Source: Leptolyngbya sp. DLM2.Bin27 (GTDB lineage Bacteria; Cyanobacteriota; Cyanobacteriia; Phormidesmidales; Phormidesmidaceae). From it: a stretch of DNA of 33,407 nt. The position numbers were made by a program, and so were the translations under genes. Positions 6,930 through 23,768 of this stretch are shown piece after piece. The stretch spans positions 1 to 33,407 of the forward strand of contig RECJ01000182.1 of NCBI GenBank assembly GCA_007694115.1. The letters are read 5' to 3'. The notes beneath the pieces were generated by a model. The model did not search any database. It saw only the letters and a list, made by a program, of their open reading frames with translations, and was not told the DNA's origin. How positions within the stretch are numbered: the stretch's first letter is position 1; the number at the start of each line of letters is the position of its first letter.

Positions 6930-7298
6930 CTACTCATCCCCCGGCTCATCCAAATGCTCCGACGCCTCGCGGTAGAGGTTAAACACATGGTCATCCTTGA
7001 GGCAATAGAGCACGTTGCGGCCCCGCTTGCGGTAGCTGACCAAGCGGGTGGCCCGCAAAATTCGCAGCTGGTGCGACACCGCCGACTCGCTCATCTCCAC
7101 CGCCGCCGCCAGTTCCCCCACCCGCATTTCGCCCAGGGCCAGGGCCGAGAGAATCCGCCAGCGGTTGGGATCGCCCAAGACGCCAAAAAATTCCGCCATC
7201 CGCTGAGCCTTCTCTAGGCTCAAAATCTCCGCCACAGATTGAGCATCGTGGACGCAGGCCGTAGACTCAGCCGAGGAAATCGGGTCAACCATCAACAT
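6930..7298 (-). CDS. smtB: SmtB-type zinc-responsive ArsR-family repressor
   Basis: This winged-helix repressor releases DNA when zinc binds. I chose the ATG at 7298 because AGGAG lies just before it; the upstream TTG at 7331 has no ribosome site. The chosen start gives 122 aa, the same length as Synechococcus SmtB. The DNA-reading helix contains SESAVSHQLRILRATRLVSYRKRGRNVLY. The alpha5 metal ligands are all present: Asp102, His104, His115 and Glu118 (SmtB Asp104/His106/His117/Glu120). The second, alpha3N site has lost its key cysteine: Arg59 stands where SmtB has Cys61, although Cys15 remains in the N-terminal arm. It is divergent from the metallothionein gene smtA, with a palindromic operator between them. 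It should repress smtA and probably itself. Confidence 0.93.
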   Translation of the reverse strand: MLMVDPISSAESTACVHDAQSVAEILSLEKAQRMAEFFGVLGDPNRWRILSALALGEMRVGELAAAVEMSESAVSHQLRILRATRLVSYRKRGRNVLYCLKDDHVFNLYREASEHLDEPGDE

Positions 7299-7380
7299 AT
7301 TCTCCTGGGGGCAAGCCCGCTGTTTGAGCAAAGCCTGACACCGATAGCTAGAAATAAAACCCAGACAACACCTGAATGCC

Positions 7381-7418
7381 TGTTCATATGTTACTATTCA
7401 TCTATGAACAGTTGTTCA
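7381..7418. promoter_or_regulatory. smt operator/promoter region
   Basis: TGAACA-GT-TGTTCA at 7405-7418 is a perfect 6-2-6 palindrome, the known core of the SmtB/ArsR 12-2-12 operator. A second looser pair, TGTTCA at 7381-7386 and TATTCA at 7395-7400, lies just before it. Both sit between the divergent starts of smtB (7298) and smtA (7480), as in the Synechococcus smt locus. Zinc-dependent derepression by loss of SmtB binding is inferred from that family. Confidence 0.85.
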
Positions 7419-7479
7419 AGCGTTTGAGCTTAAGGGCTTGAGCATTAGTTTAGTTCACCCCGTTCAGAGGATCTCTGCT

Positions 7480-7650
7480 ATGACCACCGTTACCCAAATG
7501 AAATGCGCCTGTGACTCTTGCCTCTGTGTCGTTGACACCAGCCAAGCGATCGAAAAAGACAGCCAATATTTTTGCAGCGACGCCTGCGCCAACGGCCACC
7601 CCGAAGGATCCACCGGCTGCGGCCACAGCGGCTGTGGCTGCCACAACTAG
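7480..7650 (+). CDS. smtA: Bacterial metallothionein SmtA
   Basis: This is a small cytoplasmic protein that binds four Zn2+ in a Cys/His cluster and buffers or detoxifies zinc and cadmium. The product is 56 aa, the length of Synechococcus PCC 7942 SmtA. All ligands align: Cys9, 11, 14, 16, 32, 36, 47, 52 and 54, plus His40 and His49. Recognisable segments are KCACDSCLC, YFCSDACANGH and GCGHSGCGCHN. The start is the ATG at 7480, with AGAGG about 9 bases upstream; an in-frame TTG at 7438 would overlap the control region and add a non-conserved leader. The gene is followed by a strong terminator and is divergent from smtB. Confidence 0.96.
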   Translation: MTTVTQMKCACDSCLCVVDTSQAIEKDSQYFCSDACANGHPEGSTGCGHSGCGCHN

Positions 7651-8654: not shown

Positions 8655-9779
8655 TCAATACAACTCATATTTCATCCACTGGCAGGGGATCGTCCCGTTG
8701 TAGACGGGAACTCGCTGGGCCGATTTGAGGCCAATGGAGCGAGCCAGTTCTTTGTTGCCGCTGAGCACAAAGGCTGTCCAGCCCTTGAAGCGCTGCTTGA
8801 GCACGTCGCCCAGCAGCTTGTAAAACGCGCCGAGGTCGGCGTCGGCCCCGAGGCGCTCGCCGTAGGGGGGGTTGCACAGCAGCAGGCCGCTGTCGGCGGG
8901 GGCCTCTAGGTCAGCCAGATCGGCGGCCCAAAACTTGACTTGATCGGCGAGGTCGCAGCGCTGGGCGTTGAGCTGGGCCTGATGAATGATGTCGGGGTCG
9001 CGATCGCACCCCCCCACCCAAACCCCCAGATCTGTGCCCCGGCTCGCCTCCGCCTCTTGCCACAGGCGATCCCACAGATCGCCATCAAAGTTGGGCCAGG
9101 TCTGACAGCCAAACTCTTCGCGAAAAATACCCGGCGCGATCTTGAGGGCCATCATGGTGGCCTCTAGGGGCAGCGTGCCCGAGCCGCAGAGCGGGTCGAT
9201 CAGGGGCACATCGCCCTGCCAGCCCGTCAGCGTCACCAGGGCTGCCGCTAGAGACTCTTTAAGTGGGGCGGCCCCCACGGCGGGTCGATAGCCACGGCGG
9301 TGCAGGCTGGAGCCAGAGCTGTCGAGGCTGACGGTGGCGGTGTCGGCTTGAATGTGTAGGTTAATGCGCACCTCGGGGTGCTGGGTGTCGACGGTGGAGC
9401 GATCGCCCCACTGCTGCCGCTGCTGATCGACCACGGCATTTTTCACCTGTAGCGCGGTGAAGTGGGTGTGGTTGAGATTGGGGTTTTTGCCCGTGGCATC
9501 GACGGCAAAGGTGAGGTCGGGGGTGAGGTAGGGCCGCCAGTCAATGCTTTGAATGCCCTGGTAGAGATCCTCGGCGTCGCGGCAGGGCACCTCGGCCAGC
9601 TTGACCAGCACCCGAAAGGCCAGCCGTGACCACAGGTTGACCCGGTAGAGCAGGGCCAGGTCGCCCTCAAAGGCCACCCCGCAAAAGCCGGGTTCTGTAT
9701 TTTGAGCGCCCAACCCTTCTAGCTCGGCGGCCGCTAGGGCTTCTAGACCCCGAGCAACGGTGGCAAAATATGCGGCCAT
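8655..9779 (-). CDS. THUMP-domain RNA guanine-N2 methyltransferase (RlmL-type)
   Basis: This is a predicted SAM-dependent N2-guanine methyltransferase of the RlmL/YcbY N-terminal half type, acting on 23S rRNA. The product is 374 aa. Residues 1-55 are the N-terminal ferredoxin-like part (YFATVARGLEALAAAEL), and about 55-155 is the THUMP domain. About 165-374 is the Rossmann methyltransferase: HRRGYRP at 160-166, the SAM loop DPLCGSGTLPLEA at 195-207, and the catalytic motif NPPYGERL at 303-310. It starts at an ATG at 9779. The fused second methyltransferase of E. coli RlmL is absent, as in most cyanobacteria. A tRNA target cannot be excluded from sequence alone. Confidence 0.9.
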   Translation of the reverse strand: MAAYFATVARGLEALAAAELEGLGAQNTEPGFCGVAFEGDLALLYRVNLWSRLAFRVLVKLAEVPCRDAEDLYQGIQSIDWRPYLTPDLTFAVDATGKNPNLNHTHFTALQVKNAVVDQQRQQWGDRSTVDTQHPEVRINLHIQADTATVSLDSSGSSLHRRGYRPAVGAAPLKESLAAALVTLTGWQGDVPLIDPLCGSGTLPLEATMMALKIAPGIFREEFGCQTWPNFDGDLWDRLWQEAEASRGTDLGVWVGGCDRDPDIIHQAQLNAQRCDLADQVKFWAADLADLEAPADSGLLLCNPPYGERLGADADLGAFYKLLGDVLKQRFKGWTAFVLSGNKELARSIGLKSAQRVPVYNGTIPCQWMKYELY

Positions 9780-9995
9780 GGGCCTCCTCTACGCCTCCTC
9801 TACAACGTCTCGATCGATGCTCTGGGTTGGTGTCGCCAACCCCAGCTTCCCCAGGGATTTACCGTTTTGTTAAGACCGAATATTTCGACACATCTCACCC
9901 TTGGAAGCTAGGCTATTCTATTGATATCCTGATGGATATTGCACCCCCAATTTAGGGTAAAGTGCATCAACCAGCGCTGAATGCGGCGGTTTCGC

Positions 9996-10020
9996 CAACA
10001 GCGGTTTGGCCCCCCTGTTG
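9996..10020 (+). promoter_or_regulatory. Leader hairpin upstream of infC
   Basis: CAACAG (9996-10001) and CTGTTG (10015-10020) can pair around a 13-base G/C-rich loop. The hairpin ends about 9 bases before the ribosome site AGAGGAAAG of infC. Its position would allow an effect on ribosome access, but this is inference. Confidence 0.4.
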
Positions 10021-10040
10021 AATCATGAGAGGAAAGACTT

Positions 10041-10526
10041 ATTTCTAAGACGCAACTGGTAAACCGGCAAATTCGCTCACCCCAGGTGTTCTTAATTGAC
10101 CATGAGAACCAAAATCGGGGGCTCATGGATACTCGCGAGGCGCTGACCATCGCGGAGGACGTAGGCCTTGACCTGGTGGTGGTTTCCAACGGCAAAGATG
10201 CCCCTGTGGCCAAAATTCTGGACTACGGTAAGCTCCAGTACCAGCAGAGTAAGCGACAGAAGCAAAGCTCTAAGCCGTCTTTGAAAGAAGTCAAGCTGCG
10301 CCCCAACGTGGGTGAGTCTGACTACCAGCTTCGCATTCGGCGCTCGGTTGAGTGGCTGTCTAAGGGAGACTCGGTTAAGTTTTTAGTGCGCCTGCGGGGC
10401 CGTGAACACCAGCACCGCGATCGCGCCGCCGAGTTGCTAGAGCGGATTGTAAAAGATATCGGTGATGCCGGTAAGGTGCAAGCTCTTGACCGCAAGGCGC
10501 TGGTGCTCATGATCACCCCAGCCTAG
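10041..10526 (+). CDS. infC: Translation initiation factor IF-3, probable AUU start, divergent copy
   Basis: IF-3 binds the 30S subunit, prevents premature 50S joining and proofreads the start codon. The conserved N-terminal block VNRQIRSPQVFLID lies upstream of the first GTG (10086), so translation must begin earlier. The only well-placed candidate is ATT at 10041, five bases after AGGAAAG; AUU is the classic autoregulated infC start. This gives 161 aa, short for the family (about 170-180). The N domain continues with MDTREALTIAEDVGLDLVVVS and ILDYGKLQYQQ. The C domain has EVKLRP, DYQLRIRRSVEWLSKGD, RLRGREHQH and VLMITPA. It differs from typical cyanobacterial IF-3: usual PPVCRIMDYGK reads APVAKILDYGK, and the last loop is shortened. 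It could be a second paralogue of the main infC. Confidence 0.85.
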   Translation: MSKTQLVNRQIRSPQVFLIDHENQNRGLMDTREALTIAEDVGLDLVVVSNGKDAPVAKILDYGKLQYQQSKRQKQSSKPSLKEVKLRPNVGESDYQLRIRRSVEWLSKGDSVKFLVRLRGREHQHRDRAAELLERIVKDIGDAGKVQALDRKALVLMITPA

Positions 10527-10620: not shown

Positions 10621-10998
10621 TCAGATAGCCCAGCCTAAGATCTGGGCCACCTCTTGCCATACGGTCACAGGGTCAAAGGGCTTGGCAATGATCCCGGCGA
10701 TGCCCAGGGCGGTCGGGTGGTCGCGATCGCTCGACATGACCTTAGCCGTCAATAAAATCACCGGTACAGCCTGGGTTTTGGGCTGAGACCGCAGCTGAGC
10801 CACTACCTCAAAGCCGTCCATATCAGGCATAGAAACATCTAGCAAGATACCGTCCCAAGGCGCAGCCAGGGCCGCCTGTATGCCCTCGCGGCCCGACCCA
10901 GCGCTGCCGGTTTGCCAGCCGCCAAACTCCTCTAGGGAGAGGCAAACGACGTCGCGAATATCCAGCTCGTCGTCAATGACTAAAATCCGCTTGCTCAT
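10621..10998 (-). CDS. Single-domain response regulator (CheY-like receiver)
   Basis: This is a stand-alone phosphoreceiver of 125 aa starting at MSKRILVIDDE. I placed the start at the ATG at 10998; the open frame runs further upstream but only into the kinase coding region. Acidic pocket residues Asp9/Asp10, the phosphoacceptor Asp54 (GILLDVSMPDMDG), Thr85 and Lys106 (IAKPFDP) are all present, so it should be phosphorylatable. No output domain is attached, so it probably acts by protein contact or phosphorelay. It is third in a minus-strand operon, 49 bases after the histidine kinase gene, which is its likely phosphodonor. Confidence 0.93.
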   Translation of the reverse strand: MSKRILVIDDELDIRDVVCLSLEEFGGWQTGSAGSGREGIQAALAAPWDGILLDVSMPDMDGFEVVAQLRSQPKTQAVPVILLTAKVMSSDRDHPTALGIAGIIAKPFDPVTVWQEVAQILGWAI

Positions 10999-11047
10999 AG
11001 ATTTACAAAGTTGCTCATAGAAGGCCCAGAGAGGGCGGTTAGGTGGC

Positions 11048-13876
11048 TCATAGGTCTTTGACCGGCAGCGTAAAGAAAAAGGTGCTGCCCAGGCCCAACT
11101 GGCTCTCCACCCAGATTTCCCCACCGTGCTGCTCGACGATGCGTTTACAGATAGCTAGCCCCAGGCCAGATCCCCCCTTCCGCCGCGAATCTGACCCATC
11201 CACCTGCTGAAACCGCTCAAAGATCACCTCTAGGCAATGGGCCGGAATGCCTCGCCCCTGGTCTTTTACGGCCACTCGCAGATACAGCGGCGGCGGTTCG
11301 CCACCGCCATCGGGTTCAGGGCTGGGGGTCTCAGGGCTGGGCAGCGCCGGCACAGCCACCGTCAACCAAATTTTGCTTCCAGGGTCAGAAAATTTAATCG
11401 CGTTGCCCAGCAGATTAGTCAACGTCTGCACAATGGCGTCTGGCATGACCATCACCGTGGCGTGAGTAGGGGCAATATGGAGGCTCACCTGGGCCGCCTC
11501 TGCGATCGCCTCTACCCCACTCACCGCCTGGTCAATCAACTCGTCGATGGCATAGGGTTCTAGCACCAGTTCGCTATGCCCCGAGGCCAGACGCTCTAGG
11601 TCGAGAATGTCATTGACCAGGCGAATCAGTCGCTCGGTGTTGTTGAGGGCCATGTGCAGCATTTGCTGGGCCTTTTGGGGGCGATCGCTCAGCACCCCAG
11701 CCGCCAAAATGCCCAGGCCGCCACGAATGGCCGTGAGGGGCGTGCGCAGTTCATGGCTAACAATGGAGATAAACTCATCCTTGAGACGATCGATCTTGTA
11801 GCGATCGCTGATGTCGCGCACCACCACCAGCACCTCATCCTGGGTCACCGGAATAATGCGCGCCTCTTCGTAGAACACCTTGCCATCCCACCAGAGCTCG
11901 TACTCCTGCCGCTGAATCTTGCCCGTAGCTAGCGCCACCTCAACTAAGCGCTGTCGCCCCTCCGCCAGAGCCCTGGGCAAATTTTCGTACATGCTAGTTT
12001 CCAGAATGCGGCTGGCATCGCCAATCCAGTTGACCGCCTCCAGGTTATAAACTTCCTTGGGTCGGCCGTCGCGGCCCAGGCGCATCAGCAGGTCAGGAAT
12101 CGCGTTAATCAGCGCCTGCTTAGTCGCCTCACTGGCTACCAGTGACGCGGTCTGGGCCGCCACCTGGCGCTCTAGTTCTTGCTGGTAGTGGGTGCGCAGT
12201 CGCTCAGCCTGGCGGCGCTCGCTGATGTCTTGGAAGGTGTTGATCGAATAGATCACCTGCCCCAGATCGTTAACCACCGGAATGGTATGCACCTCTAGGG
12301 GAATGCGGCGATGACCCGTATCGACCTCAATGTCGTCGGTGTAAGCGGTCTCGCCCCGCAGACCGCGCACCACGGGCAACTCGGCGGTGGGGTAAAGCTG
12401 ATCGCTGCCAGCCCGATACAGCCGATAGGTGGTAGCCAGCGGCTCGGCATCGGCCAGGGCAGTACCCTGGGTCAGCATCTCTTTGCCCTTGGCATTGAGA
12501 AACAGCATGTGCCCCTGCTGGTTATGGACGCTGAGGGCCACCGGCACCGCGTTGAGAAAGGTCGCTAGGGTATGCTCACGGTCTTTGAGGTCTTGAAAAG
12601 ACCCTACGAGCTGCCCCACCATCTGGTCAAACCCCTGCCGCAGGGCTTCTACCTCCTGAATGCGGCTGGGCTGGGTCGGGGGCACCACCGCCATGCCGTC
12701 GGTAAAGGCCTGGGTAGCCCGCTGCAGCGACAAAATGGGCCGGGTGATATAGTCTGCGGTCCACAGCCCCAGGCCAATCGACCCCATTAGGGCCAGGGCA
12801 CACAGTAGCGCAGTCCGGGCCATGTTGGCGTAGATATTAGCCATAAACTCCGAGGTCGGAATCACCGTCACCAAGATCCAGTTCAGCTCAGCCTGCATCG
12901 GTGTGGCCTTGACAAAATAGCGCTGGTTTCCCAAGCGCACCTCAGAAAACACCGGCCCCTGAATTTGGCTAAAGTCGGCGTGGGCGTCTAACAGGTCTTG
13001 GGCGGCGGCGCGGGTGATTGAATCGCGGCTCTGGGTCACCGACAGGCGGCGGGGCGGCACGGCCACGTTTTGGGCATAGTTGCTGGCCTTACCCAGCCTG
13101 AAAGGCAATTCGCTGGTAGAGGTTGCCACCAGGTCACCGTTGGGTTCGATCACAAAAATTTGCCCCTGGGGGCTGGGGATCAAAGCCTGCAAAAACTCCC
13201 CTAGCTCGGTCAGCAAAATCGCGGTACTGACCACCCCCCCGGCCTGACCCGCAGGCGTTGTAAAGGGCATGAATCGCACCATCGCCAGCCGGGGCCGATT
13301 TTCACCGCGCTCTAGGGTTACCACCAGCCGCCACAGCCCCTCGGGGTACGCCTGAGCCGCAGCATACCAAGGATGGTCTGGTGGGTCGCGGTGGGGGTCG
13401 TAGTTGTAGCGCAGTGGGGCTACGGGGCTTTTGTCTTGGCCCTCGCCATCGGTGGTGTAGTGATAGAGCGTGCCATCGACAGCGTCAATATTGAGTCGTC
13501 TCACGGACAGTGAACCTGACGGCGATCGGGCCACATTGAGAAAGGCCCCGGCCTGGTTGGCGATCGCAATGCCGGTCAACTCTGGAAACAGGCTGAGCTG
13601 CTGCACAAAATGGTCTTCTAGGCTGCCCAGATCGGTGCTGCTAAACTGTCCGTTTTGCAGCAAGTAACCGTTGGTTTGGGCTACAAACTCCAGCACCTTT
13701 AGGTAGGCCTTGAGGCTGTCTTCGGTACGTTCACTGCTCTCGGTCATCAGCTGGCTGGCCATATCGCTCACCGCCCGCTGCCCGCTGCGGTACGACAGAT
13801 AGCCCACCACCCCCGTAGTGCCGACAATTTGCAGCAGAAAAGGGACAATCAGCAGATTTCGCAGGGAAAATTTCAT
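11048..13876 (-). CDS. Membrane sensor histidine kinase (dCache-HAMP-PAS-PAS-HisKA-HATPase)
   Basis: The product is 942 aa. A first membrane helix lies near residues 8-28. A long extracytoplasmic region to about 348 looks like a double Cache sensor (DPPDHPWYAAA, GGVVSTAILLTELGEFL). A second helix lies near 350-373, then HAMP, two PAS regions (about 434-550, ending INTFQDISERRQAE, and about 585-690, ending VVVRDISDR), with a coiled linker between. The kinase core has the phosphoacceptor His708 in SIVSHELRTPLTAIRG, Asn825 in LLGNAIKFSDPG, KDQGRGIP, and GSGLGLAICKRIVEQHGG. A proline-rich insert (SPETPSPEPDGGGEPPP) interrupts the ATPase domain. It starts at an ATG at 13876. It sits between two response regulator genes in one operon (52 and 49 bases). 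The ligand cannot be told; Cache domains often bind small metabolites. Confidence 0.95.
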   Translation of the reverse strand: MKFSLRNLLIVPFLLQIVGTTGVVGYLSYRSGQRAVSDMASQLMTESSERTEDSLKAYLKVLEFVAQTNGYLLQNGQFSSTDLGSLEDHFVQQLSLFPELTGIAIANQAGAFLNVARSPSGSLSVRRLNIDAVDGTLYHYTTDGEGQDKSPVAPLRYNYDPHRDPPDHPWYAAAQAYPEGLWRLVVTLERGENRPRLAMVRFMPFTTPAGQAGGVVSTAILLTELGEFLQALIPSPQGQIFVIEPNGDLVATSTSELPFRLGKASNYAQNVAVPPRRLSVTQSRDSITRAAAQDLLDAHADFSQIQGPVFSEVRLGNQRYFVKATPMQAELNWILVTVIPTSEFMANIYANMARTALLCALALMGSIGLGLWTADYITRPILSLQRATQAFTDGMAVVPPTQPSRIQEVEALRQGFDQMVGQLVGSFQDLKDREHTLATFLNAVPVALSVHNQQGHMLFLNAKGKEMLTQGTALADAEPLATTYRLYRAGSDQLYPTAELPVVRGLRGETAYTDDIEVDTGHRRIPLEVHTIPVVNDLGQVIYSINTFQDISERRQAERLRTHYQQELERQVAAQTASLVASEATKQALINAIPDLLMRLGRDGRPKEVYNLEAVNWIGDASRILETSMYENLPRALAEGRQRLVEVALATGKIQRQEYELWWDGKVFYEEARIIPVTQDEVLVVVRDISDRYKIDRLKDEFISIVSHELRTPLTAIRGGLGILAAGVLSDRPQKAQQMLHMALNNTERLIRLVNDILDLERLASGHSELVLEPYAIDELIDQAVSGVEAIAEAAQVSLHIAPTHATVMVMPDAIVQTLTNLLGNAIKFSDPGSKIWLTVAVPALPSPETPSPEPDGGGEPPPLYLRVAVKDQGRGIPAHCLEVIFERFQQVDGSDSRRKGGSGLGLAICKRIVEQHGGEIWVESQLGLGSTFFFTLPVKDL

Positions 13877-22640: not shown

Positions 22641-23372
22641 CTAGACCTCGTGAACTGTCAACGGGTTGCCGGGAATGGCAATCAGCCCATCTCTGTAGAT
22701 ATGGATCAGGTTGCGCTGGCGGAGTTTGCCCATCAGTCGGGTGACGGTGACCCGAGTCGAACCAATGGCGCTGCCGATCTGAGCGTGGGTCAGTGCCCAG
22801 GGCAGATAGTACCCCGACTCACAGGGTTCACCAAACTCTTCGATCAACAGGGTGAGAAAGCCGAGCAGGCGATCGATGGTGCGCCGCTGCCCTAGGGTGC
22901 TGAGCCACAGCAGCTTGCGCTGGTGTTGATAGCGAAAGGCATCGAGCACCTCGCGGCGAAAGTGGGGCCAGTTGTCTAGGTCATTCCAGTACAGCCAGAT
23001 CACGGTGGTCTGGTCGACGTGGGCAAAACTCTGCAACAAAAATGGAGCCTGGGCCACAATCTCAAAGGGCTGCCCAGCCCCGACAAAGCCAAGAAAAGCC
23101 TCTTCGTTGAGGCCTATGGACAGGGGCGAAGCGCCCTCTTCGTCACTCACCTCAAAGTCAAGCTCTGGTTCTCCGTCGCTTGCTCCCTCAGCAGAGCCCA
23201 CCAACCGCACGGCGCCGCGCTCTACCAGGTAGAGCAGCCCAGATCGGGTGGGGATACGCTCGTTCTGGTTAAACGTTCTCGTCCGGTAGTGGGCGTGGGC
23301 CCAGTCAGTAATGCGCTGCCAAGTCAAAAATGGCCGGGCGTTATCAGAGGGAAGAGATGATTGCATAGCCAT
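22641..23372 (-). CDS. Crp/Fnr-family regulator with NtcA-like DNA-binding helix
   Basis: The product is 243 aa. The N-terminal part (about 25-150) is a cyclic-nucleotide-binding-like barrel with an acidic insert (EGASDGEPELDFEVSDEEG). After a long helix the winged helix contains LTHAQIGSAIGSTRVTVTRL (about 194-213). Its IGSTRVTVTRL core equals the recognition helix region of NtcA, which reads GTA-N8-TAC. The effector domain, however, does not read like NtcA (no matching 2-oxoglutarate pocket segments that I can see), and cAMP-binding residues of SyCRP1 are not obvious. I infer a separate Crp/Fnr paralogue that may share NtcA target sites. It starts at an ATG at 23372. It is convergent with rbcR, 37 bases apart. 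Confidence 0.85.
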   Translation of the reverse strand: MAMQSSLPSDNARPFLTWQRITDWAHAHYRTRTFNQNERIPTRSGLLYLVERGAVRLVGSAEGASDGEPELDFEVSDEEGASPLSIGLNEEAFLGFVGAGQPFEIVAQAPFLLQSFAHVDQTTVIWLYWNDLDNWPHFRREVLDAFRYQHQRKLLWLSTLGQRRTIDRLLGFLTLLIEEFGEPCESGYYLPWALTHAQIGSAIGSTRVTVTRLMGKLRQRNLIHIYRDGLIAIPGNPLTVHEV

Positions 23373-23694: not shown

Positions 23695-23700
23695 TCAAAT

Positions 23701-23768
23701 GTGTGAGGAGCGAACCAGAAGAGATGCCGAGACGAAACACGGCCAGTCGTCGGCATCTCTTTTGTTTT
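23701..23768 (+). ncRNA. Candidate small RNA of about 68 nt
   Basis: Transcription from the promoter at 23666-23694 should begin near 23701. The predicted RNA opens GUGUGAGGAG and then folds into a hairpin: AGAGATGCCGA (23720-23730) pairs perfectly with TCGGCATCTCT (23750-23760), extended inside by GAC/GTC. TTTGTTTTG follows, so the hairpin is a Rho-independent terminator on this strand only. An ORF of 62 codons crossing it is repeat-made and lacks a proper start. The 5' end is complementary to the CUCCUCACAC core of the cyanobacterial sRNA Yfr1 and also resembles a Shine-Dalgarno sequence. No known RNA family is assigned. Confidence 0.55.

Follow-up and report, generated by a model that had tools for sequence, protein, structure and literature searches.

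Translation initiation factor IF3 is a core factor, and its gene is usually treated as a single-copy marker. In the available part of PMC5987646, infC belongs to the marker set. The infC gene that we analyzed in Leptolyngbya sp. DLM2.Bin27 (genus Nodosilinea) raises two questions, namely at which codon its translation starts and whether its product is the usual cyanobacterial IF3 or a different type. All positions below refer to the window, i.e., the whole stretch of 33,407 nucleotides that was analyzed (contig RECJ01000182.1, forward strand). The gene occupies positions 10041-10526 on the plus strand and encodes 161 amino acids, excluding the stop codon. Its product scored 146.6 bits against TIGR00168 (cut-off 60) and matched both Pfam domains, the N-terminal domain PF05198 at 10059-10265 (86.2 bits; cut-off 26.9) and the C-terminal domain PF00707 at 10281-10484 (69.8 bits; cut-off 34.8). 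The predicted structural model (pLDDT 85.1) aligned in Foldseek with 1tif over the N-domain and with 1tig over the C-domain (TM to target 0.92 and 0.80, respectively). Thus, the product is translation initiation factor IF3 with both domains present. The gene is under strong purifying selection (dN/dS 0.03-0.07 against 23 relatives). Unlike E. coli, where the order is thrS-infC-rpmI-rplT, infC stands alone in the window between two opposite-strand neighbors, and the infC-rpmI-rplT order was not found at this locus. The neighbors, judged from sequence, are a divergently oriented putative THUMP-type rRNA methyltransferase (8655-9779, minus strand) and a converging ORF for a putative response regulator (10621-11124, minus strand); they were kept in 23 and 21, respectively, of the 24 distinct Nodosilinea-type loci.

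With respect to the start codon, the IF3 frame opens at 10029 and ends at 10526. An in-frame TGA (10026-10028) closes it immediately 5' of the ribosome site and is followed by GAG GAA AGA CTT ATT TCT AAG ACG CAA CTG GTA AAC CGG. The sequence-only reading had pointed out that conserved IF3 residues lie upstream of the first standard start codon and had proposed the ATT at 10041-10043, together with its ribosome site, as the start. Both observations held on closer analysis: the Shine-Dalgarno core GAGGA (10029-10033) lies 7 nt 5' of the ATT, no standard codon occurs earlier in the frame, and the earliest in-frame ATG, GTG or TTG is the GTG at 10086-10088. The Pfam IF3_N match begins already at 10059, so that a start at this GTG would cut into the N-domain.

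To compare this start with those of relatives, we collected 165 loci of the divergent IF3 type to which the window gene belongs; one (L107) had no N-terminus, and the other 164 gave 114 distinct start regions. An Ile codon (ATT, ATC or ATA) was present 6-18 codons before a conserved N-domain Asn in all 114 regions, and a Shine-Dalgarno match of at least 4 nt at a spacing of 5-11 in 111 of them. More than two-thirds (81/114) contained no in-frame ATG, GTG or TTG within 25 codons 5' of the conserved Asn, and the frame was closed 10-13 codons before this residue in 61/114. When the start was chosen by the Shine-Dalgarno match alone (spacing 5-11), it was ATC in 81 regions, ATT in 25 and ATA in 5, with none in the remaining 3; in regions with several Ile codons, the pick of the start codon is a matter of judgement. 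The residue following the chosen start was Ala (50), Val (35), Ser (25) or Thr (1), all residues after which the initiator Met can readily be removed. An earlier rule for choosing the start had favored second residues of this kind and was kept out of the evidence in favor of the Shine-Dalgarno-only rule. An upstream in-frame standard codon was present in 33 of the 114 regions, and an extended form of IF3 may be made in these. Eight of the 33 had a match of at least 4 nt to a wide anti-Shine-Dalgarno pattern, and those nearest to the purine core were L001 (AGGA), L038 (AAGG) and L134 (AGGAG, only 3 nt away).

Within the 24 distinct Nodosilinea-type genes, the start codon was ATT in every case. 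Only 15 of the 161 codon columns consisted of a single codon in these homologues, whose dS to the window copy was 0.45-2.0. Two further Ile columns were also entirely ATT, and the invariant start codon in Nodosilinea is therefore suggestive but no proof. The 114 start regions agree with one another by sequence comparison, which strongly supports the position of the AUU start at 10041, and we infer that this codon is used in vivo.

A start at a standard codon, i.e., the view of annotation pipelines, would place it at GTG 10086 in the window or at upstream standard codons in some relatives. The 33 regions with an upstream standard codon are in its favor, and so are two annotated Nostoc plasmids: in AP018319.1 (L194) the divergent infC is annotated from a TTG 5' of the Shine-Dalgarno site and looks too long, and in NZ_CP046705.1 (L195) it is annotated from a downstream TTG within the N-domain and looks too short. 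However, the window frame has no upstream standard codon at all, and the first downstream one lies beyond the conserved Asn in 110 of the 114 divergent homologues. GTG 10086 itself was rejected, as 3 of the 24 Nodosilinea homologues have GTA or GTT in its place and initiation there would remove conserved N-domain residues. We thus regard a standard-codon start as very unlikely, and automatic annotation appears to miss the near-cognate start of divergent infC, with AP018319 and NZ_CP046705 as probable cases of misannotation. Another arrangement at this site is an ATG-started ORF of 7 codons (10025-10048) that overlaps both the Shine-Dalgarno site and the ATT, from which ribosomes might shift +1 into infC. 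A slippery site was not evident, and the TCATGA of the window corresponds to TTTTGA in most Nodosilinea relatives, which thus lack the ATG; a frameshift from ATG 10025 was therefore rejected as extremely improbable.

The AUU start resembles that of E. coli infC, which also encodes IF3 and begins at AUU behind a Shine-Dalgarno site with no standard start nearby. When E. coli K-12 infC was read in the same way, the ATT was recovered, preceded by a Shine-Dalgarno site at a spacing of 8 nt, and no standard codon was present. As judged from sequence, the window gene matches the E. coli type in its near-cognate start, its Shine-Dalgarno site and the lack of a standard start within reach. In contrast, the canonical infC genes of Cyanobacteriia start with ATG, GTG or TTG, mostly without a Shine-Dalgarno site: all 28 canonical genes with a full N-terminus had a standard in-frame codon within 25 codons, and just 6 of them had a match of at least 4 nt at any standard codon. 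A near-cognate start is also known from Staphylococcus aureus, where ribosome profiling showed that infC begins at AUA behind an extended Shine-Dalgarno site and is thought to be autoregulated (PMC13009471); unlike the present case, the available part of that paper describes neither a paralogue nor a replacement. We further examined 19 IF3 loci, 15 from other Cyanobacteriota lineages and 4 plasmid-borne genes from Pseudomonadota and Bacillota. In 16 of them, an Ile codon behind a Shine-Dalgarno match could plausibly serve as the start; among the other three, a TTG preceded by a strong site is the more likely start of L210, and L209 and L211 were ambiguous. Thus, infC probably had a near-cognate start originally; the divergent gene would have kept this older state, and the canonical gene of oxygenic cyanobacteria would be the exception. 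Within this set, infC of the non-photosynthetic Cyanobacteriota (L197-L208) apparently starts with ATT, ATA or ATC behind a Shine-Dalgarno site. Plasmid-borne infC genes of Falsirhodobacter and Azospirillum (L212 and L214) have probable ATA starts and are possible extra IF3 copies in Pseudomonadota.

The sequence-only reading had also noticed that the protein departs from usual cyanobacterial IF3, which was borne out by comparison: it reads APVAK in place of PPVCR, and its C-terminal loop is about 3-4 residues shorter than the canonical one. Scores for PF00707 split the relatives cleanly into canonical (117-129 bits) and divergent proteins (66-83 bits), and a profile of the divergent protein gave two peaks in a survey of the class (at least 229.8 and at most 160.2 bits). 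Divergent IF3 was detected in 99 of the 388 cyanobacterial genomes sampled, with a scattered spread; 51 of the 388 belonged to the closely sampled family of the window organism, and 50 of these 51 carried it. Phylogeny likewise separated the two types: in a tree of 100 rows, the divergent IF3 rows formed one clade and the canonical Cyanobacteriia rows another (support 100/99 for each), the divergent clade was not nested within the canonical one, and window-type IF3 fell outside the canonical clade. The divergent clade sits on a long stem (1.99) and is placed next to another long branch at low support, and the position of its root should not be relied on. Within the scope of our searches, the divergent clade was found only in oxygenic cyanobacteria, with copies also on Nostoc plasmids. 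A phage origin was rejected, since the best phage matches were below 40% identity and no closer than ordinary bacterial IF3.

Both types share the two-domain architecture and the same organism class, and they coexist in many genomes; outside the window's family, divergent and canonical IF3 occurred together in all 5 genomes checked. The earlier suggestion that the window gene might be a second IF3 thus stands for the class but fails for Nodosilinea, where canonical IF3 was absent from 26/26 genomes. In the window genome itself (G000, 86% complete), a search for a canonical infC beside the window gene, as that suggestion would have it, returned none, and the two IF3 genes that it contains both belong to the divergent type. 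Given this completeness, the absence there proves little by itself, and it is the genus data that carry the point. The other IF3 gene of this genome (L001, G000:C59:21151-21633) is a type A divergent IF3 with an ATC start after GGAG and is followed by a pyrR-like ORF.

In the family as a whole, canonical IF3 was present in 13 of 57 genomes and absent from 44, each of which contained at least one divergent copy (44/44), and an IF3_N profile repeated this picture of presence and absence. In addition to Nodosilinea, it was missing from g3 (6/6), g162 (7/7) and g10 (2/2), as well as from g5, g161 and one 87%-complete genome of g8. The window-type gene (type B) was found in all 24 Nodosilinea genomes whose genes were read (G000-G023); two further genomes, G441 and G442, are included only in the 26 for canonical absence. 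A second divergent copy, of type A, was present in 13 of the 24, and the window-type gene was the sole IF3 in the other 11, of which 8 were at least 97% complete. In one genome of another genus of the family (G433, counted among the 13 canonical-positive genomes), the canonical infC is broken by a frame change near the start and an in-frame TGA, and Y107, a position invariably occupied by Tyr in the 28 canonical rows, is substituted; an intact divergent copy accompanies this broken gene (L250, G433:C125:19400-20500). It looks like a decaying pseudogene and hence a loss in progress, with an assembly error as another possible cause. These comparisons show that the divergent clade has replaced canonical IF3 in Nodosilinea and several sister genera, so that the window gene is the main or only IF3 there.

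We then compared residues in 48 divergent and 28 canonical rows, using E. coli numbering. In contrast to E. coli IF3, the divergent clade has changes at R25, Q33, R66 and R116 and a C-terminal loop of reduced length; it also lacks the C-terminal Lys pair. R25 is Arg in 28/28 canonical rows and Leu or Phe in 43/48 divergent ones, R116 is Arg in 23/28 canonical rows and Glu, Gln, Gly or Lys in 47/48 divergent ones, and among the divergent rows Q33 is replaced by Asn in 44/48 and R66 by Lys in 47/48. Other positions were retained, either in all 48 divergent rows (Y75, K79, R129, R131 and R133) or in most of them (R99 in 46/48 and R147 in 47/48). We take R25, Q33 and R66 to be N-domain positions that face the initiator tRNA. 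Q33 and R66 also vary in outgroup rows, and R25 is therefore the distinctive change of the divergent IF3. Such changes make an altered start-codon fidelity possible. A changed initiator tRNA as the partner of the changed IF3 was rejected, because the tRNA core was unaltered by exact match in 52 of the 57 family genomes, including that of the window; ARAGORN called tRNA-Met(cat) at all 4 loci checked.

These data are best accommodated by a reading that we consider quite probable: the window gene, which encodes an IF3 of the divergent clade that has replaced canonical IF3 in Nodosilinea and several sister genera, would be translated from the AUU at 10041, and this start would be kept weak for negative autoregulation. 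The Shine-Dalgarno site would recruit the 30S subunit to the infC start and offset the weak codon, IF3 already on the 30S subunit would reject the near-cognate AUU, and a rise in free IF3 would then lower infC synthesis, as in E. coli. Autoregulation of E. coli infC is cited in the available part of PMC9410913 and is also found among the references of PMC9845219. From this analogy we infer autoregulation of the window gene, and the divergent protein presumably has full IF3 activity. The leader contained no RNA structure beyond chance (z 0.20), no Rfam family was found at the window infC, and no sigma-70-type promoter was found in 9780-10040.

A different role would be that of a specialised or conditional second factor, acting in stress, differentiation or symbiosis, for which the weak start merely lowers expression with no feedback by IF3. 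Its scattered spread outside the window's family and its presence on Nostoc plasmids would suit such a role, and the changes at R25, Q33 and R66 hint at altered activity. However, 44 of the 57 family genomes have no IF3 type other than the divergent one, which must do the general job there, and IF3 genes of other lineages typically begin at near-cognate codons as well, so that we consider a purely specialised role unlikely. It is possible, if somewhat doubtful, that the divergent IF3 was at first a back-up under the control of canonical IF3 and later became the sole, self-regulated IF3 with altered stringency. The canonical factor, made from an AUG or GUG start, would have repressed the AUU or AUC start of its paralogue, which would have been produced only when IF3 activity was short; with this insurance, the canonical gene could have been lost in several lineages, and a sole IF3 with a changed face towards the initiator tRNA might then have altered the stringency of start-codon selection.

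Cyanobacterial IF3 thus falls into two clades with different start-codon control, one of which has replaced the other in the window's group. A near-cognate infC start is already known; what seems to be new is a cyanobacterial clade with such a start that replaces the canonical IF3. In the literature searched, which largely excluded subscription papers, neither a second cyanobacterial IF3 nor the start of its gene was described. The available part of PMC4971617 lists infC copy numbers of 1, 1, 2 and 2 in four cyanobacteria without comment, and that of PMC3610870 reports infC of Nodularia spumigena, which may be either IF3 type, among the strongest transcription starts. Natural strains without canonical IF3 could be used to examine which residues of IF3 are important for fidelity. 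Some caution is also appropriate, as annotation may misplace the start of infC and infC trees may mix paralogues.

Two other elements of the window are worth recording. A divergent pair at 6930-7650 comprises, as judged from sequence, a putative ArsR/SmtB-type repressor and a small Cys-rich SmtA-type metallothionein. A Cyano-1 RNA (RF01701, 46.6 bits) was detected at 23697-23766, upstream of a CRP/NtcA-type-like ORF on the minus strand (22641-23372).
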